Shown: positions 2,926-57,815 of the stretch, piece after piece
Layout of the letters: every line of letters starts with the position of its first letter
How positions within the stretch are numbered: the first letter of the stretch is position 1
Origin: a virus
Virus record (IMG/VR): IMGVR_UViG_3300032313_001158
Coordinates: 1-64,000 of that record
DNA: 64,000 nt
Direction: 5' to 3' (one strand)
Program-made: the position numbers and the translations under genes
The notes under the pieces: model-generated
Told to the model about the DNA's origin: nothing
The model's input: the letters and a program-made list of their open reading frames with translations, nothing else
Databases searched by the model: none

Positions 2926-4872
2926 TTAGGTTAATCCGGCTCCGGTAATAACAAATTGATTGCTGGCAATACATAATATGGTGCAAAGTCCATATCCAGC
3001 AAGTGTACGACTGCCCGTTAAACCAGTGACCACTTGCCGCATGGTAACACTGGTTCCTTGTGTAATTGTTTGACTTGAACTGGAGTTGTTATAAATTGTT
3101 ACAGATTGCCCTGCACTAAACACTCCAGAATTTAGCGTAACTCCACCCGAAGTAATAGAAATTACCTGTCCAGAATCTGATACTAAAAGGCTATAACTTG
3201 ATCCTTTACTTTGCACCGGCAAATTACGAAGATTACCAACACTGTCGGCCACACTGGTCATGCCAGACATTGTACCGCCAGTGATAGTTACATTATTGTC
3301 GTTCTGAATTGACAGGTTGCCTAAACTACCAGTAACTGCGGTTACAAAAGCAGTTGTTGCTACCGCAGTATTTGATGTACCAGTTGGCATGGTCAAGGTA
3401 GTTACAATTCCGCCTACACTTAGATTGCCGGCTATGCCTGCACCGCCCGACAATACCATTGCTCCTGTAGTAGTTGACCGACTGGCAGTGGTTGCTGTTG
3501 ATAATAGGTTACCAGCGACATGTATGTTTGCACCTATAGTTGCTTGTCCGCTCGTTGAGCTATTACCGCTGATAACAACATTACTACCAATTGTGGCTGT
3601 TGTACCAACGGTTAACGCACCAGACAATGCAGCAGACCGAGTGTGTATGGTGTTAAATCGCATACCAGAACTGCCGATGTTTGAACTAATATTAGCAGTT
3701 GGAATTATATCTGCACCAAGATACATGGTTGCTACATTGCTTAAAGTAGAAAATGTATTAGCCGCGTTTATATTTCCTACCAATATACTTTCAGAAAAAA
3801 TATTGGTCCAACGATTGGTGGTGTTCCCTAGAGTGTAAGTTAAATTTGCACTGGGTGTCACATCCCCGAAGAAATTGGCTGTGCCGTTTACTGACCCAGA
3901 TAATGTATCAACATAATTTTTTGTGGCCACAGATAAAGCAGGCGATGATGCTATAGGGTGACTGTAGACTTCAGCTAATCCGGTGGTAGAATTTCCTCGC
4001 AAGAAAGCAGTTTGTAGACCTCCAGATTTAACACTGAGAACAAGGTCTCTATTATTAGTCTGATTTCTTAAAGTGACTACACCGCTGCTAACTGATCCAA
4101 CGAAGTCACTTGCAGCGCCAAATGTGATGCCGCCATCATTGGTCAATGATAACGAGCCATTTACAGTGCCAGACTGATCATTTCGTAAAAAACTAGCTCC
4201 AGCAACGGCTACACCACTCACATACAAACTGCTGGCAACTTCGCTGTTGCCCCAAAATGTGTGTCCTAGTGTGCTGTTGAGATTTAGTCCTTTTTTGATA
4301 GTAGCAAATCCAGATATGTCTGAAGCAAATGGACCATCCTTGCTCCAAATTCCTACCAAAATATCGTTAATAAGAAATTTGATCACCACAAAAGTTGTGC
4401 TGGGTGGTGCGTCAGTAATAACGTCAGGTATGGCTCCTGAATTACCAGTAGCTGTTCTACTCAATGGGCCAATAAGTTGCCAAACTGTACCGTTATATAG
4501 TTTTAATTGGCCGTTGGTGGTATCATACCACTGCTCACCTGTGTAAGCATTCAATGGGGTGCTGGCACTCAATGTCATTCCAGCAACAGTTTTCCAAATA
4601 GCACTAGCTGTGCCTTTGGTGGTAGCTATATTTACATTTAATAATTTTGTTGTGCTATTGAACCAAAGTTGTCCAGGAACAGGTGCAGTGGGTGCTGTGC
4701 CAAGTGCAAAGTTTTCCATTAATCTTACTACATTTTGATTTAGAAAAAGCCCGTATCCTTTGTAGTTTTTTCCTACCAAAGTGAGGCTTGAGTTTGTACT
4801 GTCTGTGGTATTATCTAATAATCCACCTGCAATTAATTCTGTTCCGTTGGTTAATGTTATATTATATGCCAT
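2926..4872 (-). CDS. Long tail fibre / virion structural protein
   Basis: A 648-residue protein rich in Thr, Ser, Asn and Gly with short beta repeats (for example SLTNDGG, GNLSVGG, ATIGANIHVAGN). The first 90 residues (AYNITLTNGTELIAG, then PVPGQLWFNSTT) resemble the N-terminal attachment part of fibres in T4-like aquatic phages. Later residues contain TTAFVTAVTG and YVDTLSG fibre signatures. It is preceded by a late promoter and AGGAAC, and followed by the coupled glycine-rich tip gene. Exact fibre type (tail versus other appendage) cannot be decided. Confidence 0.8.
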   Translation of the reverse strand: MAYNITLTNGTELIAGGLLDNTTDSTNSSLTLVGKNYKGYGLFLNQNVVRLMENFALGTAPTAPVPGQLWFNSTTKLLNVNIATTKGTASAIWKTVAGMTLSASTPLNAYTGEQWYDTTNGQLKLYNGTVWQLIGPLSRTATGNSGAIPDVITDAPPSTTFVVIKFLINDILVGIWSKDGPFASDISGFATIKKGLNLNSTLGHTFWGNSEVASSLYVSGVAVAGASFLRNDQSGTVNGSLSLTNDGGITFGAASDFVGSVSSGVVTLRNQTNNRDLVLSVKSGGLQTAFLRGNSTTGLAEVYSHPIASSPALSVATKNYVDTLSGSVNGTANFFGDVTPSANLTYTLGNTTNRWTNIFSESILVGNINAANTFSTLSNVATMYLGADIIPTANISSNIGSSGMRFNTIHTRSAALSGALTVGTTATIGSNVVISGNSSTSGQATIGANIHVAGNLLSTATTASRSTTTGAMVLSGGAGIAGNLSVGGIVTTLTMPTGTSNTAVATTAFVTAVTGSLGNLSIQNDNNVTITGGTMSGMTSVADSVGNLRNLPVQSKGSSYSLLVSDSGQVISITSGGVTLNSGVFSAGQSVTIYNNSSSSQTITQGTSVTMRQVVTGLTGSRTLAGYGLCTILCIASNQFVITGAGLT

Positions 4873-4925: not shown

Positions 4926-5603
4926 CTATTTTTGGCGCCCTGACTTCATGTTAGCACACCAGTGATACATTTTGGCTCGTTCACCACCGGCGTTCTTGGC
5001 ACGAGCACGTAAATCAGTGACTGACCCGTTGCAACTGGCACCCGAGCGTTTTACACGACCAGGGCGACTTCGGCCTTTAACTTTACCGTCTGCAAAGTTT
5101 TCCCATACATTCTGTTCAGGACGATGTTTGCCCCAGAAGCCAGCCCCTGCATCTGTTTGCTGACCACTACGGCGTATCTTGTAGCCTTTGCTTTTAACAT
5201 AGTCATACATGGCAGCAGCAATACCTTGTCCTTGGAAGCGTTCATCCACTTCTAAATCTTGTGGCATCAAGTATCCGCCTTCGTCTACAAACAACACATG
5301 ACCTAGTTCACGACCATTGGCTATGGCTCTAACCATGATTTCATCGCCTTCTATGTCCATGTCAATATCTATACCACCGAATGAATCTTCTGTTACTTTT
5401 ATTTGTTCTTGATCTTTGATCCACTCGTCCGGAGTCATTCCGTGTTTTTCAACAAAACGATCATGTAATTGTTTTGGGGTAATGTCTTGCTCTTTAGCAA
5501 TTGTCTGCATCATATGATCTATTGCATCGTAGCTGTGTGGGTTTTTTAGATCTTTTTCTAAATCTTTAACAGCATCCTCGTTTAAAAATTCACTTGCTCT
5601 CAT
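4926..5603 (-). CDS. Putative head-packaged GNAT acetyltransferase
   Basis: A 225-residue protein in three parts. Residues 1-10 (MRASEFLNED) look like a T4 capsid targeting peptide with an LNE cleavage site. Residues about 75-165 match the GNAT fold, with the acetyl-CoA loop in LEVDERFQGQGIAAAMY. The C-terminal 50 residues are basic (KRSGASCNGSVTDLR, then MYHWCANMKSGRQK), a tail seen on other phage proteins and possibly metal- or nucleic-acid-binding. It is the last gene of a five-gene operon and overlaps the preceding gene (TAATG). The acetyl acceptor is unknown. Confidence 0.65.
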   Translation of the reverse strand: MRASEFLNEDAVKDLEKDLKNPHSYDAIDHMMQTIAKEQDITPKQLHDRFVEKHGMTPDEWIKDQEQIKVTEDSFGGIDIDMDIEGDEIMVRAIANGRELGHVLFVDEGGYLMPQDLEVDERFQGQGIAAAMYDYVKSKGYKIRRSGQQTDAGAGFWGKHRPEQNVWENFADGKVKGRSRPGRVKRSGASCNGSVTDLRARAKNAGGERAKMYHWCANMKSGRQK

Positions 5604-6892
5604 TATGAGCCTAACCGATCCATCCAGTGTACAAAAGGATCATTAACTACAATAGTGCCATCAGGTCGTTGCATATAATTACTACTGTGTAAATCAAGTG
5701 AATATCCGTGTTTCCTACCAAACGTATGAACAGTATGCACTGTTTTCAATAATCTTTCGGCACTTTGTCTACCGCCTAGATATCTTACAACTGCTTCAGC
5801 ATCTGTACCCAATTTACTAAATATCTGATCAAAATCTTTCTTGCCAATTTGATCAGTGAATTGATCTATGTAATGAACAATGCGTCTGAGATCAGGCGAT
5901 AATTCTTGCAATGCTTCCATTCGGGCCTGAATATAGTTCTTGCCTTGGAATTCAAAACTTTCAAATCCCGAAAAACGTGGTAGGCTAGGATTGTTTTTAT
6001 TGGCATTGCAATAATTAATCCAATCAATGAACATGCGTTGGTCGGGACTAAAATTTTCTCTATTTCCCGGGCGATAACCAAATACAAGTAATACTTGCCC
6101 TGTATCGGGCTCGAGCCATGCTTGTTTATCAATACCACTACCAAGATATTGGTAGCCTTTGTCCCGTAATACTTTTCTTATGCCGCCGTGGACCTTGCCG
6201 GCCATTTCAGTTACTTCATTATTACGACTAGGGCCGTAGATAAATGCCGATGGATTTAGTCCAAACTTGGCAGCAACTTTTTCAATGAAAGCATGGACTA
6301 TACTGTTAGGAATACGTTCAGCCACTTTCTTTTGAATTATTTGATCGTAGTGTTTACCTTTGAGATAAACGTCAACTAATTCTCTGTCACTGATGATTTT
6401 ACCTTCTTCAATATCGGCATCTTCTTCAAATTGTTTTGAATAACCTACATTAAATTGTGGGTCGGCGCCGGCCCATGTTCCTTTACTGACACCTGCATTG
6501 AATCCACCTTTTTGGTAGTTTAGGCCATAACTTTGAATTCCTTGGTCTTTTTGTCCTGCTGCATTTAACGATACAGAACTATCATTTCCTACTGGTATAT
6601 TATAAGACCCCGACACCGCACCTCGATCACCCAAATATAAACTAGCAGGACCTTTGGCTATGTTTACACCTCGTTGTGGCATAAATGTAGCACTAGCACC
6701 AGGTTGGTCTGCTGCTATAGATAGATTTAAGCCGCCTGGCAAGTTTCCTGATGCTCGTTGATACCCTTGACCAGCATCCACCCCAATTTCTTGATGCCAA
6801 TTTGGTTCAAATTCAGTTCCGCCGCCGGACCAAGTGTCTTTGCCCAAGTCAGGAAGTTCACTGTCGTCTTTTAAAAACTCGTATGCTCTCAT
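5603..6892 (-). CDS. Putative head-packaged protein with kinase-like C-terminal domain
   Basis: A 429-residue protein. Residues 1-10 (MRAYEFLKDD) fit the head-targeting pattern. Residues about 40-155 are Gly/Ser-rich beta repeats (SYNIPVGNDSSVSLNAAG and similar). From about 215 a protein-kinase-like fold can be read: a glycine-rich loop GSGIDKQAW, and a catalytic-loop-like LDLHSSNYMQRPDG followed by VVNDP in the place of DFG. The usual lysine of strand 3 is not obvious, so activity is uncertain. It overlaps both neighbours in the operon by 1-4 bases. Role unknown. Confidence 0.6.
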   Translation of the reverse strand: MRAYEFLKDDSELPDLGKDTWSGGGTEFEPNWHQEIGVDAGQGYQRASGNLPGGLNLSIAADQPGASATFMPQRGVNIAKGPASLYLGDRGAVSGSYNIPVGNDSSVSLNAAGQKDQGIQSYGLNYQKGGFNAGVSKGTWAGADPQFNVGYSKQFEEDADIEEGKIISDRELVDVYLKGKHYDQIIQKKVAERIPNSIVHAFIEKVAAKFGLNPSAFIYGPSRNNEVTEMAGKVHGGIRKVLRDKGYQYLGSGIDKQAWLEPDTGQVLLVFGYRPGNRENFSPDQRMFIDWINYCNANKNNPSLPRFSGFESFEFQGKNYIQARMEALQELSPDLRRIVHYIDQFTDQIGKKDFDQIFSKLGTDAEAVVRYLGGRQSAERLLKTVHTVHTFGRKHGYSLDLHSSNYMQRPDGTIVVNDPFVHWMDRLGS

Positions 6893-9204
6893 GTCACAGG
6901 TACTATGGTAAATGGACCACGGTCTCTAACTTCAGCTGGTGCAGTATTAATCATCCAATTTCTTGCATACTGATTGGCATCACTTTGTGCCGTGGTATTG
7001 ATAAACGAATACACTTCTTGGTCATTGCGATCTAGTATGAGCCATCTGGCATTGCCTGGTGGTAAGTTGTCTGAACCACGAGCAGATTGTTGCTGTACCT
7101 GAGAAGCTGCTCCCGGTGTTGTTCTTAGATTGAATCCTTCTCTAGGTAAGCCGGGATTTCTAATAGCATCCTGCCAGATTCTAAATGCTTGCACCGCTTG
7201 TTCTTCAGTGTTGGCCGTAAATCTATAAACGGTATTTTGACTGGATATGTTATATATTTCCCAATTACCGTCGGCAGTATCCAGTGCAGGCATTTGCGCT
7301 GCCAGTCGTTGACGCTGTAGATCTTGTGTACTGCCTGACACAGCACCAGCTGGCACTGGTTCTCCTGATCTAGCTTGTATAGGTCTCATCTGTGGGCGAA
7401 CATACACACGATCATCAAACCCTGTTTCCTCCTGCCATCTTGCAGCATGGCGTTCGGCATCAGCAACAGCATTGCCTATTCCACTTATAGTATGCACGAC
7501 TTCGTCGGTAGCTCTACTAACAACTTCCCAAGTTCCAGTAAATTCTTGATCTCTGCTGGGCGTCTGCTGCGGAGTTTCTTCGTATGGACGAATAGGTTCA
7601 GCTTTAACATCATCCTTGCCACGCCATTCTGCATACCCATTTGGGCCGCTGGTTCCTTTTTCAATGGCCTCTTCGGCACTTGTGGCCACAACTTCTACAC
7701 TGGCCCAAATACTGGGTCTATATACACGCCACCAATAGCGTTTACCATCGCCTGGCTTTTGTTTTGTAACTTCACGCTTGGTTTGTATTTGTCTAATAAA
7801 ACTCTTTAGTGCTGATGTAGGCAATTCACCTGCTGCGTACCGGGCAAAGTACTGAATACTGTCATCGTCACCTTTTGGATTTAAAGTTTTGTACAACTTT
7901 TTGTAGTATTCTTGTTTGAATGCGTCAGGTTTGGTAGCAACATCCAGTGCAACTACAGCTCGTAATAATGTGTTCTTTACAGGACCAAGGTCATCACCCA
8001 ACCAGTCTCCGCCCGGACTACGAAACTCAATCCAGTCGCCACGATTGTTAATGCTGACAAATTTTTCTGTTGATCCGGTGTGAATCATCTTGCTGGCCAA
8101 TTGATTAAGACCATTCTGAAACTGACGCATCATTTCTGTGACTTTATCAGGATTACTGCCTGCTTGTGTTCTAATTTTCTGCAATGCAGATTTGCAATAG
8201 TGGTTGCCTTCACGACCAAATTGTTTTAAGATGTACTCGTCGCCTAGGAACATGGCCAATTTTACATAGTCAAGATTCTGTTGATCAGGTACGCTCACGT
8301 TCATGTGTAGTCCAGTGCTGCTGTTGGTATAAGCACCAGCCTGGCTGGCCCATTTTGCTACCTTGTCTATGTCCTCTAACATCTCAGGAACAGTTAGTAC
8401 AGGACTAACAAACTCCAAGCCTGTTTCACCTTCATCTCCTTGCAGACTGCCGTCAGGTTCTACCACATAGTGTCCAGCTTCTCTGCGACCGCCATGATAA
8501 CTAGATGCAGCATTTACTGGTCGACCTATTGCTTGACTAAATTCGTCAGCCACAGCATCAATGCTGATTGCGCCACCACCACCGCCATAATATTCCGGAT
8601 AGGTCCAGTAAGGCCAGTCTAGATTGTATTGATTAGCAAATTCACTCATTGAGCTAATGTCTTGCTCATCTAACCAGCGTTCAAAAAGTGTGTCGGCATC
8701 ATCTCTGAATTCTTGACCAATTTCATCACGGATGTCGTCCTCATTTTGGTCAATGTAGTCTTGAATAGCTTGTTGCAGTTCTCGTTCTGAATCTTCATCG
8801 TAGTCGCTGGGATCAACATTGTCGATAGCAATTTCTCTTATTCTTTCTTGTCCCGCAGGCGACGCAATGAAGTCTTGCTCGGCTTCGTCTATCCAGGAAT
8901 AGAAATCTTCGTTCAAGCTGTCTATTGCTCGTTGTATAGTGCTGGTGCTGTTGCCCATGTCGCCGCCACGGAAGAACGAAATAATGTCACGTTGCCAACC
9001 TCTACCAGTAGGAAAACTTTCATCTGCATCATAGTCAGGTTCTGAATCGTATTCCTCTTCTTCCTTCTCAACACCGGGCACTATTAGCTCAAATTCCATA
9101 CCTGCTCTGGCATCAATGTTCTTGACCATTTTGCTCAAGTTAGTTGGGCTCATATTGAGCTCAAACAATTCATCTTCGGTTAGTTCAAATTCTCTGTATC
9201 TCAT
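6889..9204 (-). CDS. Putative amidoligase with C-terminal repeats, head-packaged
   Basis: A 771-residue protein. It starts MRYREFELTEDELFEL (head-targeting-like). An amidoligase-type fold (glutamine-synthetase/ATP-grasp-like ligases making amide bonds) is split by an acidic insert at about 50-190: the GMEFELIV motif near residue 37, then GHYVVEPDGSL, TGLEFVSPVL and STGLHMNVSVP around 255-310. From about residue 560 there are three roughly 50-residue repeats, each starting W-[EL]-[VI] and containing a conserved AxxxAxxW helix and a closing VxP. Overlaps both neighbours by four bases. Substrate unknown. Confidence 0.65.
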   Translation of the reverse strand: MRYREFELTEDELFELNMSPTNLSKMVKNIDARAGMEFELIVPGVEKEEEEYDSEPDYDADESFPTGRGWQRDIISFFRGGDMGNSTSTIQRAIDSLNEDFYSWIDEAEQDFIASPAGQERIREIAIDNVDPSDYDEDSERELQQAIQDYIDQNEDDIRDEIGQEFRDDADTLFERWLDEQDISSMSEFANQYNLDWPYWTYPEYYGGGGGAISIDAVADEFSQAIGRPVNAASSYHGGRREAGHYVVEPDGSLQGDEGETGLEFVSPVLTVPEMLEDIDKVAKWASQAGAYTNSSTGLHMNVSVPDQQNLDYVKLAMFLGDEYILKQFGREGNHYCKSALQKIRTQAGSNPDKVTEMMRQFQNGLNQLASKMIHTGSTEKFVSINNRGDWIEFRSPGGDWLGDDLGPVKNTLLRAVVALDVATKPDAFKQEYYKKLYKTLNPKGDDDSIQYFARYAAGELPTSALKSFIRQIQTKREVTKQKPGDGKRYWWRVYRPSIWASVEVVATSAEEAIEKGTSGPNGYAEWRGKDDVKAEPIRPYEETPQQTPSRDQEFTGTWEVVSRATDEVVHTISGIGNAVADAERHAARWQEETGFDDRVYVRPQMRPIQARSGEPVPAGAVSGSTQDLQRQRLAAQMPALDTADGNWEIYNISSQNTVYRFTANTEEQAVQAFRIWQDAIRNPGLPREGFNLRTTPGAASQVQQQSARGSDNLPPGNARWLILDRNDQEVYSFINTTAQSDANQYARNWMINTAPAEVRDRGPFTIVPVT

Positions 9205-9653
9205 GTTCTGTACTTTTCTTTTTCAATGCTAGGTAACAATGCATTAGATTTATTTTTTGTTGGTTGTTCCTTGGGTTCGAACCAGTCAATGTTTTTGCTT
9301 TTTTCAGCATCTAGTTCCACGTCTCTAGTGGGTATTCCTTTCAAATCTCGTACTGGAACCTTACCGCCTCGCGACTTAGGTGCTGCTGCCCAATATTCAT
9401 CACGTGGTGCATTGGTGTATATTTTTCTGGGATCAATCGATTTTTTTGTATCAACGGCGGGCTTTGATGGTGCCCATGGTGTATCTGGTACAGTGTATCT
9501 TGGTCCTGTGTTGGTTGGTTGACTGGCAGCAAAAGTTGATTCTGGCCCACTTTTTATATCTTGTACTCGCATTTGTTCGCGCCACTGGACAATTTCTCGT
9601 GGATCCATATGCACCCAGTCTTCGCGCTCTGTTATGAATTCTTGAGCTCTCAT
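9201..9653 (-). CDS. Disordered basic protein with head-targeting-like N-terminus
   Basis: A 150-residue protein, largely disordered, rich in Pro, Lys, Arg and Asp. It begins MRAQEFITERED, close to the T4 targeting peptide with an ITE cleavage site. The remainder has no hydrophobic core: repeated short motifs such as RYTVPDTPWAPSKP and DPRKIYTN look like linear interaction segments. It overlaps the genes on both sides by four bases. An internal head protein or a DNA-condensing partner are possible; function not established. Confidence 0.6.
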   Translation of the reverse strand: MRAQEFITEREDWVHMDPREIVQWREQMRVQDIKSGPESTFAASQPTNTGPRYTVPDTPWAPSKPAVDTKKSIDPRKIYTNAPRDEYWAAAPKSRGGKVPVRDLKGIPTRDVELDAEKSKNIDWFEPKEQPTKNKSNALLPSIEKEKYRT

Positions 9654-10651
9654 TCAATGATCTCCGGATGCATTTTTCCGTACAACTTCATAAGATATCC
9701 GGCCATGGCATCGGCTTCTTGTTCAATAGGCGATCCTGGGTAGGCCTGATCACCAATGATCCGGTTGTCTTCGTGTTGTTTACGATGTGTCAATTCATGC
9801 GCCACAGTACGCATGATATCAATCATGTTTCTATTGCCAGTGTAGATCCACATGATATCTTTGTTGTTGTTATAGTATCCAGTATGATGTTGATCTGGAC
9901 CTTCTTTGTCATCCTGGAATCTGATACGTGGTAATTCTTGTCGGATGTCGAGTTTTTCAACGCACCATGCAACGAAGTCACGCAGTTGCTCTTCGTGTTC
10001 TTGGAAGGTGCTTTCGTTTATTTTTTTGTCTGGTGCAACTGCAACTGGTAATCCTCGATTCAAACTGGGTGTCAATTCCAGGCGATCTGGTTCGCGAAGT
10101 CCTTTAAGAATTTCTAGCGCACGTCGTAACCCTGCGGCCACAACATCTAGTCCATTCTCGTCTGCTTGATATTTGATACCAATTCCACCAGCAGCTTCCC
10201 ATTTGATGATGTTGTCTTTGCGATCATCAATTAGTATGTTGGGTGTACCGTCTGGCTGTGTTGCATGTCGTTCTTTGCGTGATTCTATCAAGATCCGATT
10301 GGGTTGCGGATTCAAGTTGGCCTGTATCCACCGTGTTTTTTGTACGCCCGAGTTTTCGTGATCACCACGCAACGGACTGGAACAAATGCTGTAACCACCA
10401 AAAATTTTAACCACCATGGCAACTAGTTTATCTGCACTAGCAAACTTGGGTAATCTATAAAAGAAGTCGGTGCCTACCATTTTGTTCAGGGTAGGATCAT
10501 TTTTGGCTGGTGGAACGTCTCTATAGCTGCTACCCGGGGGTAACCCTGCAAGTACAGCATATTCTGCAAAGAAGTCAGCTAGTACTCCGTCCATGTCCAG
10601 GAATATTTCTGTGCGACCTCTGGGTTTTTGTTCAATTTCAAATAAGCGCAT
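9650..10651 (-). CDS. HAD phosphatase fused to zincin-like HExxH domain
   Basis: A 333-residue fusion. Residues 1-8 (MRLFEIEQ) resemble the head-targeting start. Residues 15-195 are a HAD-family 5'-nucleotidase-like domain: FLDMDGVLADFF gives nucleophile Asp19 and acid/base Asp21, SSP supplies motif II and LIDDRKDN supplies motif IV. Residues about 210-333 are a metallopeptidase-like domain with HELTH (His285, Glu286, His289) and a downstream EQEADA supplying a third ligand at about 310-314. First gene of the five-gene operon; the late promoter is only five bases upstream, with no ribosome binding site. Confidence 0.7.
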   Translation of the reverse strand: MRLFEIEQKPRGRTEIFLDMDGVLADFFAEYAVLAGLPPGSSYRDVPPAKNDPTLNKMVGTDFFYRLPKFASADKLVAMVVKIFGGYSICSSPLRGDHENSGVQKTRWIQANLNPQPNRILIESRKERHATQPDGTPNILIDDRKDNIIKWEAAGGIGIKYQADENGLDVVAAGLRRALEILKGLREPDRLELTPSLNRGLPVAVAPDKKINESTFQEHEEQLRDFVAWCVEKLDIRQELPRIRFQDDKEGPDQHHTGYYNNNKDIMWIYTGNRNMIDIMRTVAHELTHRKQHEDNRIIGDQAYPGSPIEQEADAMAGYLMKLYGKMHPEIIE

Positions 10652-33128: not shown

Positions 33129-33440
33129 TTAGGTTGCTGGTTCTAGTTTGACGTTGAGTGGAAAGCCATTGTTTCGAGCAAGCAATGTGGCTTCTACACC
33201 TTTTTGTTCTGCAATTTCATATGGCAATGTGCTTACTACACTGCTTCCTTCTTCGTGAATTTTCACAGTAATTTCGTGTGCAGTTTCTTCGGTGTGATGA
33301 AAAATATTCTTTAGACTTTCAATAACAAATTCCATAGTAGTTATATTATCATTAAGATAGATGACATTAAACAAACTGGGAGGCTGCACATTTGTTTTAA
33401 CCTGAATTCGAGGTTTTACTACGATGTCTGTTTTGCTCAT
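33129..33440 (-). CDS. clpS: ClpS-type protease adaptor
   Basis: A 103-residue ClpS homologue. The fold signature is clear: LFNVIYLNDNITTMEFVIES, LKNIFHHTEETAHEITVKIH and EEGSSVVSTLPYEIAE, as in bacterial ClpS, which binds N-degron substrates and the ClpA N-domain. The substrate pocket residues Asn-Asp and Met are kept. It starts one base after the next gene ends and lies with Hsp20 and DnaK. Inference: redirects host ClpAP proteolysis. Confidence 0.85.
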   Translation of the reverse strand: MSKTDIVVKPRIQVKTNVQPPSLFNVIYLNDNITTMEFVIESLKNIFHHTEETAHEITVKIHEEGSSVVSTLPYEIAEQKGVEATLLARNNGFPLNVKLEPAT

Positions 33441-33488
33441 AATCTTATTGGGTAAAGTAGGGGAAGAATTTCCCCTACTGTTATTATA

Positions 33489-33926
33489 TTACTTAGCGAA
33501 AGTAATTGCAATTTTTTTGGCTTTTTGTTCTTCAGGAACAATATGCTCAAGACTAATTGCCAAGATACCGTTAATTACAGTTGCACCTTTTACTTCCACA
33601 TTGTCAGCCAAAGTAAAATGGCGAACAAAAGTACGAGCACTAATTCCTCGGTGCAGGTATTCGTATTCATCCTTTTGCTTTTGTTCGCCGTGAATCGTTA
33701 GAACATTTTCTTTGTATTCAATGTCCAATTCATCTTCACTGAAGCCAGCAACTGCAAGTTGGATGGCATAGTGATTTTCGTCGATCTTTACAATGTTGTG
33801 TGGTGGATAGTTATCGGTTTTGCTATTGGCAAAAGTGCGTCCTAGCTCATTGAATAATCTATCAAAGCCCACAGCGTGGCGATGTAGAGTAGGTAAATCA
33901 AAAGTGCTAATTGTATATGTTGTCAT
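33489..33926 (-). CDS. Hsp20 small heat-shock protein
   Basis: A 145-residue alpha-crystallin-domain chaperone of the IbpA class. PHNIVKIDENHYAIQLAVAG opens the domain, ENVLTIHGEQ is the central strand, and the closing ISLEHIVPEE contains the terminal motif region. It binds unfolded proteins as an oligomer. Hsp20 is frequent in T4-like aquatic phages. A strong AAAGGAG site precedes the ATG, and a stable hairpin lies in the interval before dnaK. Confidence 0.9.
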   Translation of the reverse strand: MTTYTISTFDLPTLHRHAVGFDRLFNELGRTFANSKTDNYPPHNIVKIDENHYAIQLAVAGFSEDELDIEYKENVLTIHGEQKQKDEYEYLHRGISARTFVRHFTLADNVEVKGATVINGILAISLEHIVPEEQKAKKIAITFAK

Positions 33927-33965
33927 AGTCGTCTCCTTTCATATAAGCAAGTTATGACATATATG

Positions 33966-33994
33966 AGAGTAGACCCCACCTGGGCATCTACTCT
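33966..33994 (-). other. Stable hairpin between dnaK and hsp20
   Basis: AGAGTAGA pairs with TCTACTCT (8 base pairs) and an inner CCC/GGG adds three more. There is no T-run on the minus strand, so it is not a standard terminator; an mRNA stabiliser, processing site or attenuator is possible. Confidence 0.6.
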
Positions 33995-34003
33995 GCATAT
34001 TCT

Positions 34004-35890
34004 TTACTTCTTTTCTGTAAACTCAGCGTCAACTACTGTGTCGTTTGTGTTGGGCTGTACAGATTCCTCAGCAGCGGGTGCTTGGGTTACTTCATTAATT
34101 ACCTTAGCAGCTACAAACAATTCTGAGATCTTGGTCGTGATCACTTCCTGGTCTGTTTCTGCTATTGCCTTTTTGAGGTTGGCAATAGCCTCATCAATTT
34201 GTTTCGTCTGATCTTCCGAAAGCTTGCCTTCTACTTCCTTCATGTCAGTTTGAACCTGGTGGATTACAGAATCCGCTTGGTTACGTACTTCAATTAATTC
34301 ACGTTGCTTTTTATCAGCATCAGCATTGGCTTCGGCATCGCGAATCATTTCTGCAATCTGCTCCTGGCTTAGGCCACTATCGCTCTTGATAGTAATCTTG
34401 TTTTCTTTGCCAGTTTGTTTATCTCGGGCACTTACTTTGAGAATACCATTTGCGTCAACATCTAGGGTGACTTCAATCTGTGGTTGACCACGTGCAGCAG
34501 GATTGATTCCTTCTAGGTTAAATTCACCTAGTAGCTTGTTATAAGAGGCCAACTCACGTTCGCCCTGGAACACCTTGATAGTAACAGCAGGTTGATTGTC
34601 TTCTGCGGTCGAGAACACTTGGCTATGTTTGGTTGGAATAGTAGTGTTCTTTTGTATTAGTTTGGTCATCACACCGCCCATGGTTTCAATACCAAGGCTT
34701 AGTGGGGTCACATCAAGTAGTAGAACGTCTTTGCGTTCACCGCCTAGTACAGCACCTTGCACTGCTGCACCAACTGCTACTGCTTCATCCGGATTGACAT
34801 CACGACGTGGTGCCCGTCCAAATAACTTTTCAACTTCTTCTTGTACACGAGGCATACGTGTCATACCACCAACAAGGATAACTTCATCAATGTCCGTGGC
34901 AGTAACACCTGCATCACGCATGGCAACACGACATGGTTCAATGCTGCGTTGGATCAGCTCATCAACCAATGACTCTAGTTTAGCACGAGTAATCTTGATG
35001 TTGAGGTGTTTGGGACCTGTGGCATCTGCTGTGATGTATGGCAAGTTAACATCTGTTTGTGTGCTATTACTTAATTCAATCTTGGTGCGCTCGGCTGCTT
35101 CTTTTAGGCGTTGTAATGCCATGACATCTTTGCCAAGATCAACACCCGATTCTTTACGGAATTCGTCAATCAAGAAATCCATAATACGTTGGTCAAAGTC
35201 TTCGCCACCTAGGAATGTATCACCATTGGTGCTAAGTACTTCAAATTGCTTATCACCGTCCACGTTAGCAATATCAATAATGCTGATGTCAAAGGTACCA
35301 CCACCCAGATCGTACACAGCGATCTTGCGATCAGCCTTTTCATTTTTGTCCACTCCATATGCCAAAGCTGCTGCTGTTGGCTCATTGATAATACGTAGAA
35401 CTTCTAGACCTGCAATTGCTCCTGCATCTTTGGTTGCTTGACGCTGGCTGTCATTGAAGTAAGCAGGTACTGTGATAACTGCCCGAGTAACTTCATACCC
35501 AAGATAGTCTTCGGCAGTCTTTTTCATTTTGCGAAGAACTTCGGCACTGATCTGTGGAGGTGCTAGTTCTTTACCATCTGCCTGTACCCATGCATCGCCA
35601 TTCTTGGCTTCCATGATTGTGTAAGGCATGAGGTCAATATCTTTCTGAACAGCTTCTTCCCGGAACTTGCGTCCAATTAGTCGCTTGCTAGCATAGATTG
35701 TGTTTCGTGGATTGGTTACTGCTTGACGCTTGGCGCCGGCTCCCACAATAATCTCCTCTGCGGTGTAAGCCACGACGCTGGGAGTAGTACGTGCACCTTC
35801 TGAATTTTCAATTACTCGGGGGATTCCGTTTTCGACAACTGCTACGCAGCTATTGGTGGTACCGAGGTCGATACCAATGATTGTACTCAT
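34004..35890 (-). CDS. dnaK: Full-length Hsp70 chaperone DnaK
   Basis: A 628-residue, complete DnaK. Nucleotide-binding domain motifs: [13 protein letters not shown] (5-17), [45 protein letters not shown]. The linker is [13 protein letters not shown]. The substrate domain includes [10 protein letters not shown], and the end [12 protein letters not shown] matches bacterial DnaK (about 635 residues). No DnaJ or GrpE lies in this window, so it must use host co-chaperones or ones encoded elsewhere. Strong AAGGAG site, with both a sigma70 and a late promoter upstream. Confidence 0.97.
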
Positions 35891-51732: not shown

Positions 51733-52059
51733 TTAAACTCGAAAACTTTCACCGCAACCGCAGCGGTCACGTTCATTGGGGTTGACGAACTCAAATCCTT
51801 CGTTGAGTCCTTGTCTTTTGTAATCCATTGTTAGTCCGTTTATATACGGTAGATCTTTGCCGTTGATATAAATTTTAACACCATTACTGTCGTATGTCAT
51901 CCAATCTCTAGTAGCAGGCGGAGTGTCAACATATTCTAATTTGTAAGCAAGACCCGAACAGCCTGTTGTTCTTACACCAATCATTATGCCTTCACCTCGC
52001 CCACGTTTATCTAGATGTTGTTTTACTTTTTTGGCTGCTATTTCTGTTAAAGTTATCAT
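51733..52059 (-). CDS. A-type iron-sulphur carrier (IscA/ErpA/SufA family)
   Basis: A 108-residue A-type carrier. The three conserved cysteines are present: Cys34 in TTGCSGLAYKL, Cys100 and Cys102 in RCGCGESF. Such proteins deliver Fe-S clusters to target enzymes. ATG 52059 overlaps the upstream stop (TAATG), which is why the longer reading to 52080 is rejected. Sits in an operon with the radical SAM enzyme and IscU. Confidence 0.92.
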   Translation of the reverse strand: MITLTEIAAKKVKQHLDKRGRGEGIMIGVRTTGCSGLAYKLEYVDTPPATRDWMTYDSNGVKIYINGKDLPYINGLTMDYKRQGLNEGFEFVNPNERDRCGCGESFRV

Positions 52060-53777
52060 TAGAAGTTCTCCGGAAACCAAGATTCTAAAGGCTGATATTT
52101 GGTAATTTTAGTAACAAGAGTAGAGGTGTTGATGCTGTGTAATGTTGATTTAACTAACATTTTTTTAAATTCAATCGAGTTAGACCAGTGATACGCAGCC
52201 TGTGCCATATGGCAAGCAGGAATATTTTTTTCATTCAAATTGAAATCTATTGTGTAAAAAAACTTATCGTTAGTTACCCAATTGTTGTATAAATTCTCTG
52301 TCAATAATTGATATTGTTTAGAATTTAAAAAAGTATCTACTAGAATGTCAATATTCAATATTGACGTTAATTCTGTGTAGTTGATTTTTTCTTTAAAATC
52401 AGAAATACCTGTCATAAACGAAACAAGTACTACCATTTCTACAAACTCTTTTTGAGTAAACGAAACACAGCTCTGGGGGAATTTTCCACGAAAAATAAAA
52501 CCGGTATCGTTGATTCTTTCACTGGTGCTGTAGGTAAATTGAAACTTTTGTTGATATTCAGGATTCAATCCTGCAGGACTTGCAGGCAAAAGTTCGCTTA
52601 TAAAAGGACACAGTATCACACTGGGCAATGAAATTATTTCTTTTAGAGATTTTTTTATCGTGGTTGGGGTTTGTCCTGGCAGTCCAACAATAAATTGAAC
52701 TTTTGAAATATACTGAGGATGACATTCGTAAAGCTCTTGTATCATTTTTTTATGTATGGGCCATCCAACATCTGGACGTTCAATATTTTTTAAAACATTT
52801 TCATTTATGTCCTGAACACTGAATGTAAATCCCCATCCCTTGGCAACCAAGTCACCTTTGGCAAACAGGTGATAAATTTTTAAATTATTATCTTTACGTA
52901 ATTTACTCAGATTACCATCAGTTTTAAACTTTGCATTTTCATGAAGATTTTTATGTACCATATACTCAACAAGATCAATATCCTCTTCATACTGTCCAAA
53001 ATTTGCATCAGAAAAGTAAATATTTCTGATTCCCAACTGTTGAAAAAGATCTATTTCCTCTTTATAGGTATTTTTTCTCCTGGATACTTTGTTTGATAAT
53101 CCGCTATTCCAATCACAGAAAGTACATGCATAAGGACAACCGCGAGTTAATTCATACGGCAAAATGACATTGAGCTTGTTGTGATTGATTTCATGTTCTA
53201 CCATATCTTTAAAAAACTCTTTATTGGACAAAAACGGACTGATCTGTGATTGAGGAACATTTTTGTAATCGGCCACAATTAATTTATCTTTAGCGGTGTC
53301 GTGCCAGGCCAAATTTGAAACGTTGAATGCAATAAGATTTTTTTTATTGACCAAATTTGTAACTAAATCTGTAAAGGCAGCTTCGCCGGGACCGTATACT
53401 GCAAAATCTGCATAACTATTTTGTTGAAAAAATGCAGAGTTTATGTTTACATCAATACTGGGACCTCCTACCACAATTTTACATTTTGAGTGAAGTCTTG
53501 ATCTGATTCGCGACAGTTGCTCCCGTAAAAAGTCTGCATTCCAGAGATACATAGATATACATAACAGATCTATGTTGTTGCTGTTGCAATAATCAACCAG
53601 TTCATCGTCGTCTATCTGTTTTTGTATAGGTCTTAACCATTGAAGATTTGATGCAGCTTCAGGTGAATGAGTTTCTAAATGTGTTTTAAAGTAAAGTGCT
53701 GCAACAGACAAAAACAAACTATTCTGAAGATCTTCAAAGTAAAGCGTGTTAGCATGATAGAATAAAATTTTAAACAT
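52059..53777 (-). CDS. B12-binding-type radical SAM protein
   Basis: A 572-residue protein. The N-terminal Rossmann domain has KIVVGGPSIDV and VYGPGEAAF, as in cobalamin-binding radical SAM enzymes, but no DxHxxG motif, so base-off B12 binding is doubtful. Radical SAM motif CPYACTFCDW (Cys214, Cys218, Cys221), then IRNIYFSDANFGQYEEDI and VQFIVGLPGQTPTTIK. The C-terminal 150 residues are unassigned. ATG 53777 overlaps the iscU end by eight bases, so the two are coupled. Substrate unknown. Confidence 0.8.
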   Translation of the reverse strand: MFKILFYHANTLYFEDLQNSLFLSVAALYFKTHLETHSPEAASNLQWLRPIQKQIDDDELVDYCNSNNIDLLCISMYLWNADFLREQLSRIRSRLHSKCKIVVGGPSIDVNINSAFFQQNSYADFAVYGPGEAAFTDLVTNLVNKKNLIAFNVSNLAWHDTAKDKLIVADYKNVPQSQISPFLSNKEFFKDMVEHEINHNKLNVILPYELTRGCPYACTFCDWNSGLSNKVSRRKNTYKEEIDLFQQLGIRNIYFSDANFGQYEEDIDLVEYMVHKNLHENAKFKTDGNLSKLRKDNNLKIYHLFAKGDLVAKGWGFTFSVQDINENVLKNIERPDVGWPIHKKMIQELYECHPQYISKVQFIVGLPGQTPTTIKKSLKEIISLPSVILCPFISELLPASPAGLNPEYQQKFQFTYSTSERINDTGFIFRGKFPQSCVSFTQKEFVEMVVLVSFMTGISDFKEKINYTELTSILNIDILVDTFLNSKQYQLLTENLYNNWVTNDKFFYTIDFNLNEKNIPACHMAQAAYHWSNSIEFKKMLVKSTLHSINTSTLVTKITKYQPLESWFPENF

Positions 53778-54150
53778 TATTTTTCTTTTTGTAATCTGCC
53801 AGTGCAGCCTTGATTGCATCTTCGGCTAATATAGAGCAATGTATCTTGACAGGAGGAAGTGCAAGCTCTTCAGCAATCTGGGTATTTTTAATTGTACCGG
53901 CTTGGTCAAGAGTTTTGCCTTTAAGTAATTCTGTTACCAGCGACGAACTTGCAATTGCTGAACCGCAACCATAGGTCTTGAATTTGGCATCTGTAATAAC
54001 ATTGTTTTCTACTTGAATTTGAAGTTGTAGTACATCTCCACAAGCAGGTGCGCCCACTAATCCTGTGCCCACACGAGAATCGTCTTTGTCCATTTTACCT
54101 ACATTACGGGGGTTCTCATAGTGGTCCAGAACTTGACCTGAATAAGCCAT
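53770..54150 (-). CDS. iscU: Iron-sulphur scaffold protein IscU
   Basis: A 126-residue complete IscU. Cluster ligands Cys37 (APACGDVL, with Asp39), Cys62 (YGCGSAIASSS) and Cys105 (IHCSILAEDAI). It keeps LPPVK (98-102), the Hsp70 (HscA) recognition loop. It builds Fe-S clusters with IscS, here presumably from the host. AAAGGAG precedes the ATG. First gene of the operon leading to the B12-type radical SAM and the A-type carrier. Confidence 0.95.
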   Translation of the reverse strand: MAYSGQVLDHYENPRNVGKMDKDDSRVGTGLVGAPACGDVLQLQIQVENNVITDAKFKTYGCGSAIASSSLVTELLKGKTLDQAGTIKNTQIAEELALPPVKIHCSILAEDAIKAALADYKKKNNV

Positions 54151-54180: not shown

Positions 54181-54606
54181 TTAACTACGTTTTGCAAGAG
54201 CTGACTTAGCCATCGAATCCACAGTACGCTCAGGAGCAGTTTTAAATCCTTCTGGGCCTTCGGAATCTTGTGCAAATTCTACATCATCGGCAAAAGGTTC
54301 TAGATAAGCATATTTGACACCCGATGCATCATCTTTTATCTCTTTGATTAAATTTTTTACATCAGGATTATTTTTGTAGGCTGCTAATAGGTTTTCTAAA
54401 TTGAACTGTTGTTCACCGGTACCTTGTACCAAGTTAATTAAACTGTCAACTCGGATTCTTGGTTGAATGTGAGTATCGTGTGCTCTATTACGTAAGAACT
54501 CTAGCGTGGTAAGCAAATTAGCATCACCACGCCCGTCAGCTTCATCTTCGAGAACTTCGTCAATGTACTTGTCAAAATTCTCTACTATAATGTCACGAAT
54601 ACGCAT
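54181..54606 (-). CDS. Head-associated protein with targeting-like N-terminus
   Basis: A 141-residue acidic, helical protein starting MRIRDIIVENFDKYIDEVL, which fits the head-targeting pattern with an IVE cleavage site. The rest has LLTTLEFLRNRAHDTH and FNLENLLAAYKNNPDVKNLI. Coupled by TAATG to the upstream gene. Probably an internal head or core protein; identity with T4 proteins is not clear. Confidence 0.6.
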   Translation of the reverse strand: MRIRDIIVENFDKYIDEVLEDEADGRGDANLLTTLEFLRNRAHDTHIQPRIRVDSLINLVQGTGEQQFNLENLLAAYKNNPDVKNLIKEIKDDASGVKYAYLEPFADDVEFAQDSEGPEGFKTAPERTVDSMAKSALAKRS

Positions 54607-55295
54607 TACCGTTTTTCTCTACCAACAACATTTGGTCCTGCTGCTGCATCTGTTGCAGCAAACTCGTCTGTGTCAAGATCACTTTCTGTACCATCCGGTG
54701 CTGACATTCCTGGTGGTGCCATTCCTGGTGCACCAGCTGCTGGACCCATGCCCATTGGTTGTGCTACCTGCTCACCGGCTAAAGATCTAGCCGCATTATC
54801 AGCTGTACCTCTTGCTGAACTCAGTTGCTGTGACATATTTGCTAACAATGGTTCTACTGCTGCTTTGAATGCATCAGCTTGTTCCATGCCAATTTGATCG
54901 CGGATAGTGTCCAGCAGTGCTGGCATTTGCTCGTTTTGCATTTTGCTAACTTCTTCTAGCATGTCCTGAATACTGTCAACCATATCCTTAGCAGCAAGGA
55001 TAGCTTGACTCTTGCCCATTTCGCTTTCCATGATCAGCTGTTGCTTGTTTTCTACCATCCAACGATGTAGGCCTTCACGCACCATCAAAAGCTGCATGTA
55101 TTTGGAATTTGTTTCTGCTACATGAATGCCATGGCTACGTTTGATTTGATCTAAACTTTCAGTTAGTTCACGAGCCAAAACGAATGCTTTTGGAAAATTC
55201 AGTTTGTCGTAATCAATCGTGACTCCGAAGCGACTTTCCATAACTTTATTAATTTTTTTGCTAGTTGGCTTAACGCCCATTTCAGTTAATCTCAT
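54606..55295 (-). CDS. Putative prohead core / head protein
   Basis: A 229-residue helical protein: MRLTEMGVKPTSKKINKVME, FPKAFVLARELTESLDQIKR, YMQLLMVREGLHRWMVENK and a long helix AKDMVDSIQDMLEEVSKMQ. The C-terminal 55 residues are Gly/Pro/Met/Ala-rich and disordered. The layout suits a scaffold or core protein of the prohead. Late box at 55320-55327. Exact role is inference. Confidence 0.6.
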   Translation of the reverse strand: MRLTEMGVKPTSKKINKVMESRFGVTIDYDKLNFPKAFVLARELTESLDQIKRSHGIHVAETNSKYMQLLMVREGLHRWMVENKQQLIMESEMGKSQAILAAKDMVDSIQDMLEEVSKMQNEQMPALLDTIRDQIGMEQADAFKAAVEPLLANMSQQLSSARGTADNAARSLAGEQVAQPMGMGPAAGAPGMAPPGMSAPDGTESDLDTDEFAATDAAAGPNVVGREKR

Positions 55296-55810
55296 AGTGG
55301 TAATTTCCCAAAGTTTAAGTATTTAGCCGAAATTAAAGTTTTTTTCAAAATGTTTAATACAGCCTTACGTTGTAATTTAGCATCTATGCATCTATTTAAT
55401 ACCGCAGCTGATTTAACTAAATCTTGGGTTTTTGATAGTGTATATTCATACTGTACAATATTCAAATCTAAACGTCCGAGCTTTGTATCTAAATCTAATA
55501 GTGTTTGTGCTGATTCGTATTTTTGCCGTACTTCGCTAACACAGTAAATGATAGCTGAAGCTTTTGATGTAAAATCGTGTATGTGGCGTCCATCAATTTT
55601 TTCTACAGTCCAGCAAGCAGAATGTACTCCGGTGATACGAAACTCCCCAACAAAAAACCCATGATCATTGATTGGAATGACCACGGGTTTGTTACGGTAT
55701 TTTTTAAGTTCTTGTTTGGTCCAGTTTTTAAGATATGATGTACTAAAATCTACAAATGCATTTTGTACCTTTATGAAATCAGCTTTTTTTCCTGTAGTAG
55801 ATTTTCCCAT
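55292..55810 (-). CDS. Phage protein, unknown function
   Basis: A 172-residue protein starting MGKSTTGKKADFIKVQNAFV. A central beta part PVVIPINDHGFFVGEFRITG and CWTVEKIDGRHIHDF is followed by helices (VSEVRQKYESAQTLLDLDTK, CIDAKLQRKAVLNILKKTL). Start at ATG 55810, overlapping the end of the upstream gene by 32 bases; the longer reading to 55834 is unlikely. Similar proteins occur in related phages; function unknown. Confidence 0.65.
   Translation of the reverse strand: MGKSTTGKKADFIKVQNAFVDFSTSYLKNWTKQELKKYRNKPVVIPINDHGFFVGEFRITGVHSACWTVEKIDGRHIHDFTSKASAIIYCVSEVRQKYESAQTLLDLDTKLGRLDLNIVQYEYTLSKTQDLVKSAAVLNRCIDAKLQRKAVLNILKKTLISAKYLNFGKLPL
55320..55327 (-). promoter_or_regulatory. Late promoter
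   Basis: GCTAAATA on the minus strand, 25 bases before the start at 55295. Confidence 0.5.
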
Positions 55811-55985
55811 TTTCGTTTTTTCTAAATAAAACATCTTTGTTTACCAATTGGTTAGCTATCAAAGACTGTCTGTGTGACATGTCTTCTTTGGCAATTTGCT
55901 TTTTTTCGTCAAATTGCCCCAAAACATCTGCTTCTTCGTTGGTAATTGGTATTCTAATTTTATTTACTAGTTCTACAATCTTCAT
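55779..55985 (-). CDS. Small protein with targeting-like N-terminus
   Basis: A 68-residue protein: MKIVELVNKIRIPITNEEAD, then a helical LGQFDEKKQIAKEDM and a basic end with RKNENGKIYYRKKS. N-terminus loosely follows the head-targeting pattern. Two bases from the upstream coiled-coil gene and overlapping the downstream one. Function unknown. Confidence 0.6.
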   Translation of the reverse strand: MKIVELVNKIRIPITNEEADVLGQFDEKKQIAKEDMSHRQSLIANQLVNKDVLFRKNENGKIYYRKKS

Positions 55986-55987
55986 TA

Positions 55988-56254
55988 TTATTTTAAAATA
56001 AGTTGTACAAATACCATTATCAAGCCAGTTAACATTGCTACGCCAAATGCGGTGCCAACGGTAATCAATTGTCCGCTACTTTTATTGGTAACCTCAACAG
56101 CTGATTCTGATATTTTTGTTCGTATGATGATGATATGTTCTTCCATCGCGGTCATACGATGTTCTAGTTTATCTAATTTATCTTCCAAGCTTCGGTATCT
56201 TTCAGCACATAAATCCACGTGCGCTCCGAGGCTGGTTCTTTCGCTTTCTGCCAT
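55988..56254 (-). CDS. Coiled-coil protein with C-terminal membrane anchor
   Basis: An 88-residue protein. MAESERTSLGAHVDLCAERY is strongly conserved in a family from aquatic T4-like phages. Residues 20-60 are a coiled coil (SLEDKLDKLEHRMTAMEEH), and 63-86 are a transmembrane helix (ITVGTAFGVAMLTGLIMVFV). A lysis-related function has been suggested for similar layouts, but nothing here proves it. Confidence 0.7.
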   Translation of the reverse strand: MAESERTSLGAHVDLCAERYRSLEDKLDKLEHRMTAMEEHIIIIRTKISESAVEVTNKSSGQLITVGTAFGVAMLTGLIMVFVQLILK

Positions 56255-56338
56255 ATCACTCTTTCGTAAAAGTTAGAGGGTTCTGTGTTGTTGTCTAGAT
56301 TGTGTGCCATGAAAAAATGCCTTAATGATGCCAGTGGG

Positions 56339-56773
56339 TTAGACAGTATTTAAGTTGATACGACCTTTCATAAAACATATGTTTTTTATGGCACCATATG
56401 GGTAAAAGATTGGAAGCATAAATCTGGCAGTTTCTTCTAATCCGCATATAACAGGCACTTTTGTAAAGGCTTGATCCAGTCCAGCAACAGGATCATCATC
56501 AACTTGAAAAACGTCCTCGTGGTCAACACCAAAACTAAAAATCCAACATCGCTGTTCTCCATGGTACATTTCAGGAAAAACGGTTGTTTCGTCAATTACG
56601 ACTGTTTTACAGTATGGCCCTTCAACTAACTGAGGTTGAGCTTTGATTCCTATACACTGTAAAACTGTTTCCCAATTGCGCTGCTGGTTCCTTGGAATTT
56701 CGTCAGCAGTGGTGTGTCGAATAACTCCGGTTGCAGTAATATCAACTAATGTGATGCCGGTATAAAAGTACAT
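56339..56773 (-). CDS. Conserved virion-associated protein, leaderless
   Basis: A 144-residue protein: MYFYTGITLVDITATGVIRH, RNQQRNWETVLQCIGIKAQP, CWIFSFGVDHEDVFQVDDDP and a C-terminal PIFYPYGAIKNICFMKGR. The NQQRNWET block marks a family in T4-like aquatic phages. A perfect late box TATAAATA ends six bases before this ATG, so the transcript should start on the ATG, and a TTG upstream (56794) would lie before the transcription start. Confidence 0.7.
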   Translation of the reverse strand: MYFYTGITLVDITATGVIRHTTADEIPRNQQRNWETVLQCIGIKAQPQLVEGPYCKTVVIDETTVFPEMYHGEQRCWIFSFGVDHEDVFQVDDDPVAGLDQAFTKVPVICGLEETARFMLPIFYPYGAIKNICFMKGRINLNTV

Positions 56774-56778
56774 ATAGA

Positions 56779-56786
56779 TATTTATA
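56779..56786 (-). promoter_or_regulatory. T4-type late promoter (leaderless type)
   Basis: Perfect TATAAATA on the minus strand; six bases from its last A to the A of the ATG at 56773. Confidence 0.75.
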
Positions 56787-56791
56787 GTCAA

Positions 56792-56820
56792 CAAAAAAGG
56801 CAGAACAAGTCTGCCTTTGT
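56792..56820 (-). terminator. Rho-independent terminator
   Basis: Stem AAAGGCAGA / TCTGCCTTT with a five-base loop, followed by TTTTTTG on the minus strand; it ends the gene at 56841. Confidence 0.85.
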
Positions 56821-56840
56821 TTGTACTAATTTATATTAGA

Positions 56841-57206
56841 TTAGCTAACTACAAAACTTGTACCGTTAGTTACTGTGGCGCTGCCTAGGTTAACTGACCC
56901 TTTTCTAGTACCAATTGCTTGGATGGCTGTTTGTAATACGCTTGCGTCTGGCGCATTGACACCATCGCAGCACAAGCTGATAGCGCCCGATGTTGGGTGT
57001 GCGTAGTAAGCTAGTACTGGTGGAAACACTTGAATGATTGCTTCAAATGCTTCGTTGGCTGCATCATCTTCAGACGAAAGGTTCACACCTGCAGCGACAA
57101 CATAAAATACCACACTCTGGCCAACTTCGGTATATTGAATACCGTTTAGTACGCCAGTTAAACCTGCATAGTTGTAGCCTGCGCTACGATCAATTCCGAT
57201 TGCCAT
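56841..57206 (-). CDS. Virion-type protein, MAIG paralogue A
   Basis: A 121-residue small soluble protein: MAIGIDRSAGYNYAGLTGVL, QSVVFYVVAAGVNLSSEDDA, FEAIIQVFPPVLAYYAHPTS and a C-terminal IQAIGTRKGSVNLGSATVTN. The second half aligns with the product of 57304 (VLAY, VLQxxIxAIG, GSxNLG, TxG), so the two are paralogues. It has its own late promoter, a strong AGGAGAAAC site and its own terminator, suggesting high expression; probably a decoration or abundant virion protein. Confidence 0.7.
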   Translation of the reverse strand: MAIGIDRSAGYNYAGLTGVLNGIQYTEVGQSVVFYVVAAGVNLSSEDDAANEAFEAIIQVFPPVLAYYAHPTSGAISLCCDGVNAPDASVLQTAIQAIGTRKGSVNLGSATVTNGTSFVVS

Positions 57207-57244
57207 TTTGTTTCTCCTAAATTATTTGCGTGACCGCATGTTAA

Positions 57245-57252
57245 TATTTATC
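57245..57252 (-). promoter_or_regulatory. T4-type late promoter
   Basis: GATAAATA on the minus strand, 39 bases before the start at 57206; the leader contains GCATGCGGT and AGGAGAAAC as in the paralogue. Confidence 0.75.
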
Positions 57253-57260
57253 CTGGCCAT

Positions 57261-57286
57261 AAAAAAAGCAGCCGAAGCTGCTTTTT
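57261..57286 (-). terminator. Rho-independent terminator
   Basis: Stem AAAAAGCAGC / GCTGCTTTTT with CGAA-type loop, flanked by A and T runs; it ends the gene at 57304. Confidence 0.9.
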
Positions 57287-57303
57287 AAACACTCAATGTT
57301 AAA

Positions 57304-57753: not shown

Positions 57754-57792
57754 GTTGTTTCTCCTTAATAATTTGCGTTTACCGCATGCTAA

Positions 57793-57800
57793 TATTTATA
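57793..57800 (-). promoter_or_regulatory. T4-type late promoter
   Basis: Perfect TATAAATA on the minus strand, 40 bases before the start at 57753; the leader matches that of paralogue A. Confidence 0.8.
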
Positions 57801-57815
57801 CCAAAGAGAAAAAAA

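Follow-up and report, generated by a model that had tools for sequence, protein, structure and literature searches.

The internal proteins of T-even phages are diverse and have only their leader in common (PMC3012670; PMC12373910). In T4, the leader has 10-19 residues around an E-F core; the fetched sequences read MKTYQEFIAE/A for IPII and IPIII and MKTFKEF..ITE/A for IPI (here and below, a slash follows the Glu in question), and work on IPIII has assigned targeting to residues 4 and 7 and processing to residues 8 and 10, Asp at position 10 leaving targeting intact and blocking processing (PMC9026906). These leaders match the start shared by the products of five consecutive genes on the minus strand, at 4926-10651, of the stretch analysed here, which is called the window: positions 1-64,000, nearly all, of the 64,330-base IMG/VR virus record IMGVR_UViG_3300032313_001158, a fragment. 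This operon is probably a T4-type locus of head-targeted cargo, made partly as polyproteins that the prohead protease would cut; packaging, cleavage, ejection and a host function are predicted. What the sequences themselves display is a common tag that is concentrated in one exchangeable locus, together with modular joints within products and, in relatives, a protease and capsid site of matching specificity.

All five products start with M-R-x-x-E-[F/I] (MRASEFLNED, MRAYEFLKDD, MRYREFELTE, MRAQEFITER and MRLFEIEQKP), as the initial annotation had noticed, and the E-F or E-I core recurs in a sixth gene, at 1757-2125 (MRLTEFLIEE). The pattern M[RK]xx[ED][FI] fits 8 of the 77 window genes in a hand-made list, five of which form one run (permutation P 0.0002). 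An equal frequency of the motif in cytosolic proteins of the genome, named beforehand as the observation that would speak against the idea, was not found: only 3 of the 72 other genes of the list carry it, and the helicase and primase do not. Across seven contigs, 37 of 1299 gene starts fit the tag pattern, compared with 8 of 4768 internal methionines. The tag ends in a triplet of the [ILV]xE type in MRASEFLNE, MRYREFELTE, MRAQEFITE and MRLTEFLIE. Since the codons of the tag vary synonymously (GCA/GCT/GCC, GAA/GAG, TTT/TTC), the constraint acts on the protein. Weaker forms of the tag lie at 40519, 54181 and 59653, and a second cluster of tag-like starts was observed at 54181-60297, with MRIRDIIVEN, MRLTEMGVKP (virion structural PHROG_14154), MLLEFITTLTEG (DUF6267) and VKIKDIVHEG.

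In IMG/VR scans, the same locus was recovered in L041, L042, L044 and L045; a 355-kb contig (L008/G001) was found as well. The locus follows lipoprotein-like genes in L041, L042 and L044, and precedes a tail-fibre-like gene in L042 and L044. Its passengers differ between relatives and nearly all starts read MRAxEF[ILV]xE or similar; in whole-contig scans, tags concentrate in this one locus. In the window and in these loci, the passengers are unrelated and exchangeable, with only the leader in common (mean column identity of 4% in alignment A5 of tagged passengers). On G001, gp21 (at 236252-236698) and gp23 share the contig with an uninterrupted run of five tagged genes. A start near the T4 tag, MKNFHQFITE/A, is also found in a cultured cyanophage, in S-SRM01 gp258 (L281:9572-10894), which is annotated as a cytidyltransferase. 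The operon itself has no DNA-level match among known GenBank phages; at protein level, the HAD domain is closest to that of Methylophilales phage Melnitz, the amidoligase to that of Agrobacterium phage Atu_ph07 and the helical module to cyanophage sequences.

The genes of the operon, which overlap by 4, 4, 4 and 1 bases as the initial annotation had placed them, their modules and the associated features are as follows (CTS, putative capsid targeting sequence).

9650..10651, minus strand: fusion of a HAD 5'-nucleotidase-like domain and a zincin, N-terminus MRLFEIEQKP; the halves are separate genes in L042 and L044
9653..10012, minus strand: zincin metallopeptidase module (HELTH, third ligand E), with H72, E73, H76 and E97 invariant in alignment A3
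10013..10021, minus strand: triplet I-N-E at the joint before the zincin (INE/STFQEH), aligned with the CTS end of stand-alone zincins
9201..9653, minus strand: 150-amino-acid protein, CTS MRAQEFITE/R
6889..9204, minus strand: amidoligase, CTS MRYREFELTE/D, with Amidoligase_2 at residues 214-400
5603..6892, minus strand: fusion of module X and a kinase-like domain, N-terminus MRAYEFLKDD
5606..6205, minus strand: kinase-fold module, from sequence match and structure model
6206..6214, minus strand: triplet V-T-E at the joint before the kinase (VTE/MAGKVHGG), from stand-alone kinase starts
4926..5603, minus strand: helical module, GNAT and basic C-terminal module, CTS MRASEFLNE/D
5388..5396, minus strand: candidate triplet V-T-E where the helical module meets the GNAT (VTE/DSFGG), with few relatives and weaker than the other joints
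5100..5108, minus strand: triplet V-W-E at the joint to the basic module (VWE/NFADG), from 97 distinct contexts
4929..5099, minus strand: basic module of 57 amino acids, NFADGK..HWCANMK, net charge +12, with stand-alone forms in L035 and L030
1757..2125, minus strand: sixth tagged gene, MRLTEFLIE/E, with homologs in L042 and L044 and the tag visible in L042
10656..10663, minus strand: T4-late-promoter-like octamer CATAAATA, its position conserved in L041, L042 and L044

The amidoligase assignment is solid at the level of Pfam (Amidoligase_2, PF12224, 1.7e-12; 48.2 bits against a gathering cut-off of 22), and the protein has five IMG/VR relatives, the N-terminal start being retained in L041-L044. 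Those of HAD and zincin are supported, the former by a PHROG match (3e-20), the latter by an HExxH motif and a match to DUF3920 (1.5e-5) slightly below that family's cut-off. Structure models support the predicted kinase and GNAT folds: the kinase-like domain matches the T7 gp0.7-type PHROG_15752 (1e-10), and its model (predicted local distance difference test score, pLDDT, of 79) matches protein kinases and FN3K/APH with E 6e-5 and low template-modelling (TM) scores of about 0.4, while the GNAT, weak by sequence (0.0019), has a model (pLDDT 87) that matches GCN5 and other GNATs (E 1.6e-3, TM 0.5-0.6). No useful match came from a PDB sequence search with the kinase and zincin profiles, no relative of the 150-amino-acid protein was present among the fetched loci, and PADLOC gave scattered single matches only. 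Two disparate enzymatic domains share one chain in the HAD-zincin protein; the other window fusions hold one recognised enzyme each. IMG/VR holds more than 580 matches to the basic module; 50,697 GenBank phage records gave none, and no Pfam family scored above its cut-off. Among 111 tagged proteins, matches include the gp0.7-like kinase PHROG (11), GH19 lysin-like domains (7), DUF6321 (7), superoxide dismutase (2), GNAT, NUDIX, HicA, nucleotidyltransferase and DUF6267, and the cargo therefore appears varied and enzymatic, beyond anti-restriction. The HAD homolog of phage Melnitz lacks a tag, so HAD proteins would not always be cargo. Another amidoligase, Atu_ph07 gp196, encoded near the portal gene (MRWQDI..LTE/L), was considered as a proteomics test case and set aside, as the main text of the published virion proteomics does not name it.

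The passengers are modular, and some tagged products are fusions with cleavage-like sites between their modules, a feature that the initial annotation had missed. The window holds three such joints, between HAD and zincin (INE), module X and kinase (VTE) and GNAT and tail (VWE), and a fourth candidate. In L042 and L044, the two parts of the HAD-zincin protein are encoded by separate tagged genes, and the sequence after the joint of the fusion, INE/STFQEH, has its counterpart in the stand-alone zincins MRAREFVVE/STFQEH and MRAQEFITE/STFRDH. Similarly, VTE/MAGKVHGG is matched by the stand-alone kinases MRAADFTTE/MAGSIHRG (L041) and MRAHDFTLE/MAGEIHAG (L272), and the basic module is found alone behind a tag in L035 (MRANEFIIE/NFADG) and L030 (MRASEFIVE/NFADG), as well as behind many unrelated upstream sequences; in its 97 distinct contexts, the preceding residue is E in 97 of 97, with V, I or L two positions before it in 69.

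This was examined further in 314 representative tagged open reading frames, joints being located from columns +4 to +33 of the stand-alone partner only, such that the tested column had no influence on the choice. An earlier form of the test, based on BLAST starts, had been dropped because these starts can be biased by the E itself; in the subset of high-scoring segment pairs that start after E, this residue was found in only 4 of 52, a bias in the opposite direction that led to the redesign. At 108 joints, E occupies the exact column in 69% (1-19% at other columns within 12) and [ILV]xE in 48% (at most 10% at other columns within 12), figures that are descriptive, the sequences being related and the joints not phylogenetically independent. 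Identity to the stand-alone form is 49-64% at +1..+3 and only 3-13% at -1..-5; the homology between stand-alone and fused modules ends exactly at the last Glu of the tag. E is the majority state in 25 of 39 module families and [ILV]xE in 19 of 39, and with the basic module excluded, E is present at 50 and [ILV]xE at 37 of 83 joints.

The joints also bear on the alternative that survives best, albeit as an unlikely one, namely that these are plain T4-style internal proteins whose tag is removed and whose inner [ILV]xE triplets are uncut scars of fusion within multidomain enzymes. A tagged gene fused to its upstream neighbour would keep part of its tag, and multidomain injected phage proteins are known in the form of polyvalent proteins (PMC5512222). 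The remainder of the tag should then persist too, yet its targeting half is near background at the joints (M 2-4%, R/K 11-20%, and F 17% against a background of 16% in the earlier BLAST-based set), the triplet alone is kept, with no conservation of its middle position (6%). As descent alone would keep M, R and F equally, it is simpler to assume selection on the triplet.

The same triplet is found at the capsid maturation site of relatives. In five of them, LxE/[SAT] stands in the capsid protein at the column that aligns with E65 of T4 gp23, where SFLTE65/A of T4 aligns with YLAE/S, YLSE/S, YLAE/A, HLME/T and YLSE/S. A gp21-type prohead protease (PF03420) is encoded in 5 of 16 and in 15 of 19 records of relatives, mainly large ones, the second set consisting of records that carry these modules and G001 belonging to both. 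The T4-type head targeting proposed by the initial annotation gains strong independent backing from the shared tag on exchangeable passengers, the gp23-like triplet and the presence of gp21 in most large relatives, whereas the injection and host modification that it also proposed are predictions. Small tagged proteins of 60-99 amino acids were also observed in several contigs (L017 at about 12000, L112 at about 4071, L165 at about 7538, L127 at about 3459, and others); their post-tag sequence, SATAGATSAGNIA.., resembles the mature capsid N-arm (YLAE/SATAGATAASN..), and they are possible capsid N-arm mimics.

By sequence analogy to T4, the late-made products would enter the prohead core through the tag MR-x-x-E-F-[ILV]-x-E, and a gp21-type prohead protease would remove the tag by a cut after [ILV]xE. 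This protease would also separate the modules (HAD, zincin, kinase, GNAT, helical module and basic 57-amino-acid tail) at the inner [ILV]xE sites; because the same triplet is kept at the joints, separate mature enzymes would be released inside the head by the same maturation step. DNA would, by the same analogy, be packaged around the mature products, and these may leave with it into the host, for which T4 and giant phages offer precedents (PMC5694885; PMC12373910), there to modify host proteins and nucleotides. If the T4 rule applies, the FLKD of the kinase product predicts targeting without removal of the tag, and yet a cut at VTE. A broader proposal, which the evidence favours by a modest margin, is that uncultured phages related to T4, often jumbo phages, have a combinatorial system for their cargo, in which modules swap between single-tagged genes and tagged polyproteins, the head protease serving as a universal separator and one maturation step giving rise to many ejected enzymes.

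Several observations weigh against head-targeted, protease-cut cargo, besides the relatedness of the sequences behind the joint figures. A cleavage triplet of the [IL]xE type ends the tag in three of the five operon genes; the kinase gene has an altered triplet, FLKD, at this place, and the HAD-zincin gene (MRLFEIEQKP) has no fitting triplet at the usual position. About 30% of the joints lack E. Most window passengers are acidic (net charge -51 for the amidoligase), only the 57-amino-acid tail being strongly basic, and the tagged GH19 lysin-like and superoxide dismutase domains of relatives are no obvious host effectors. Finally, gp21 and gp23 were not found in the 64-kb record of the window, which is a fragment.

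It is improbable that the tag instead docks these proteins to another virion part or to a scaffold (tail, neck or core), making them structural or assembly factors that are not injected. The locus does adjoin a tail-fibre-like gene (2926-4872, between the sixth tagged gene and the five-gene run) with the same promoter-like octamer upstream, and cyanophage proteins near gp16/gp17 contain the helical module as well; the tags, however, end in the capsid-maturation triplet, and the passengers are enzymes that vary between relatives. Less probable still is that polyvalent proteins are processed here by their own zincin domain and not by the prohead protease: zincins have been proposed to process polyvalent proteins of which they are part (PMC5512222), and zincin modules are common in this set, but joints with the same triplet are present in zincin-free proteins (kinase, GNAT, basic module), and the triplet is that of the gp23 maturation site. 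It is scarcely credible that the common start plays no part in targeting and simply results from translational coupling or from a recent duplication of genes. ATGA overlaps favour a second codon beginning with A, and R2 alone (AGA in 98 of 111) could stem from them; they do not explain E, F, [ILV] and the final E, whose codons vary, and the passengers are unrelated.

The late promoter suggested upstream of the operon is less clear. The octamer CATAAATA lies merely 4 nucleotides from the ATG, and its position is conserved in three relatives, where it reads [ac]ATAAATAcaaaATG. Its number in the window is not above chance (129 against 118 expected with one mismatch allowed; NATAAATA on the coding strand, 12 against 8.05 +/- 3.0), and the promoter was therefore not used as evidence.

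If the proposal of head-loaded, protease-separated cargo is true, the combination of tag and [ILV]xE joints would serve as a sequence rule that makes head-loaded proteins and their mature forms readable from metagenomes of uncultured T4-related phages, and would point to many unknown enzymes as candidates for host takeover or anti-defence. The locus would also represent a DNA phage with polyproteins cut by its own capsid protease, of which no report was found in the portion of the literature consulted. The gene content of the window is T4-like, with a DnaB helicase and a primase by PHROG and other genes by reading; genes that read by eye as ClpS, Hsp20, DnaK and Fe-S cluster proteins (IscA/IscU-like) lie at 33129-35890 and 51733-54150.

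Among known systems, the closest are IPI, IPII, IPIII and Alt of T4, which share with the locus a short N-terminal M-[RK]-..E-F-[IL]-x-E, unrelated passengers, a variable locus and, in part of the tags, a terminal cleavage triplet. Here, in contrast, the enzyme operon is longer, position 2 is R and not K, many products consist of several modules and repeat the triplet at their inner joints, and passengers are mostly acidic, whereas T4 internal proteins are typically basic, although basicity is not known to be a requirement. This acidity is why the proteins are likened to T4 internal proteins in their mode of action and not filed as members of IPI-III. Polyvalent proteins (Iyer et al. 2017, PMC5512222) resemble them in joining disparate enzyme domains in one polypeptide, in their predicted injection and in their frequent zincins, but the present products are small (two to three modules in the window), with a defined N-terminal tag and prohead-protease-like triplets at module borders. 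The ejection proteins of phiKZ and SPN3US (PMC5694885; PMC10052503) are likewise head proteins whose propeptides are cut after xxE; in the parts of these reports consulted, cuts remove propeptides, and release of several functional modules per chain is not reported. Lastly, the T7 gp0.7-like kinase is akin to the kinase module of gene 5603-6892, which differs in being fused behind a tag and module X and in being predicted to be packaged and not made early.

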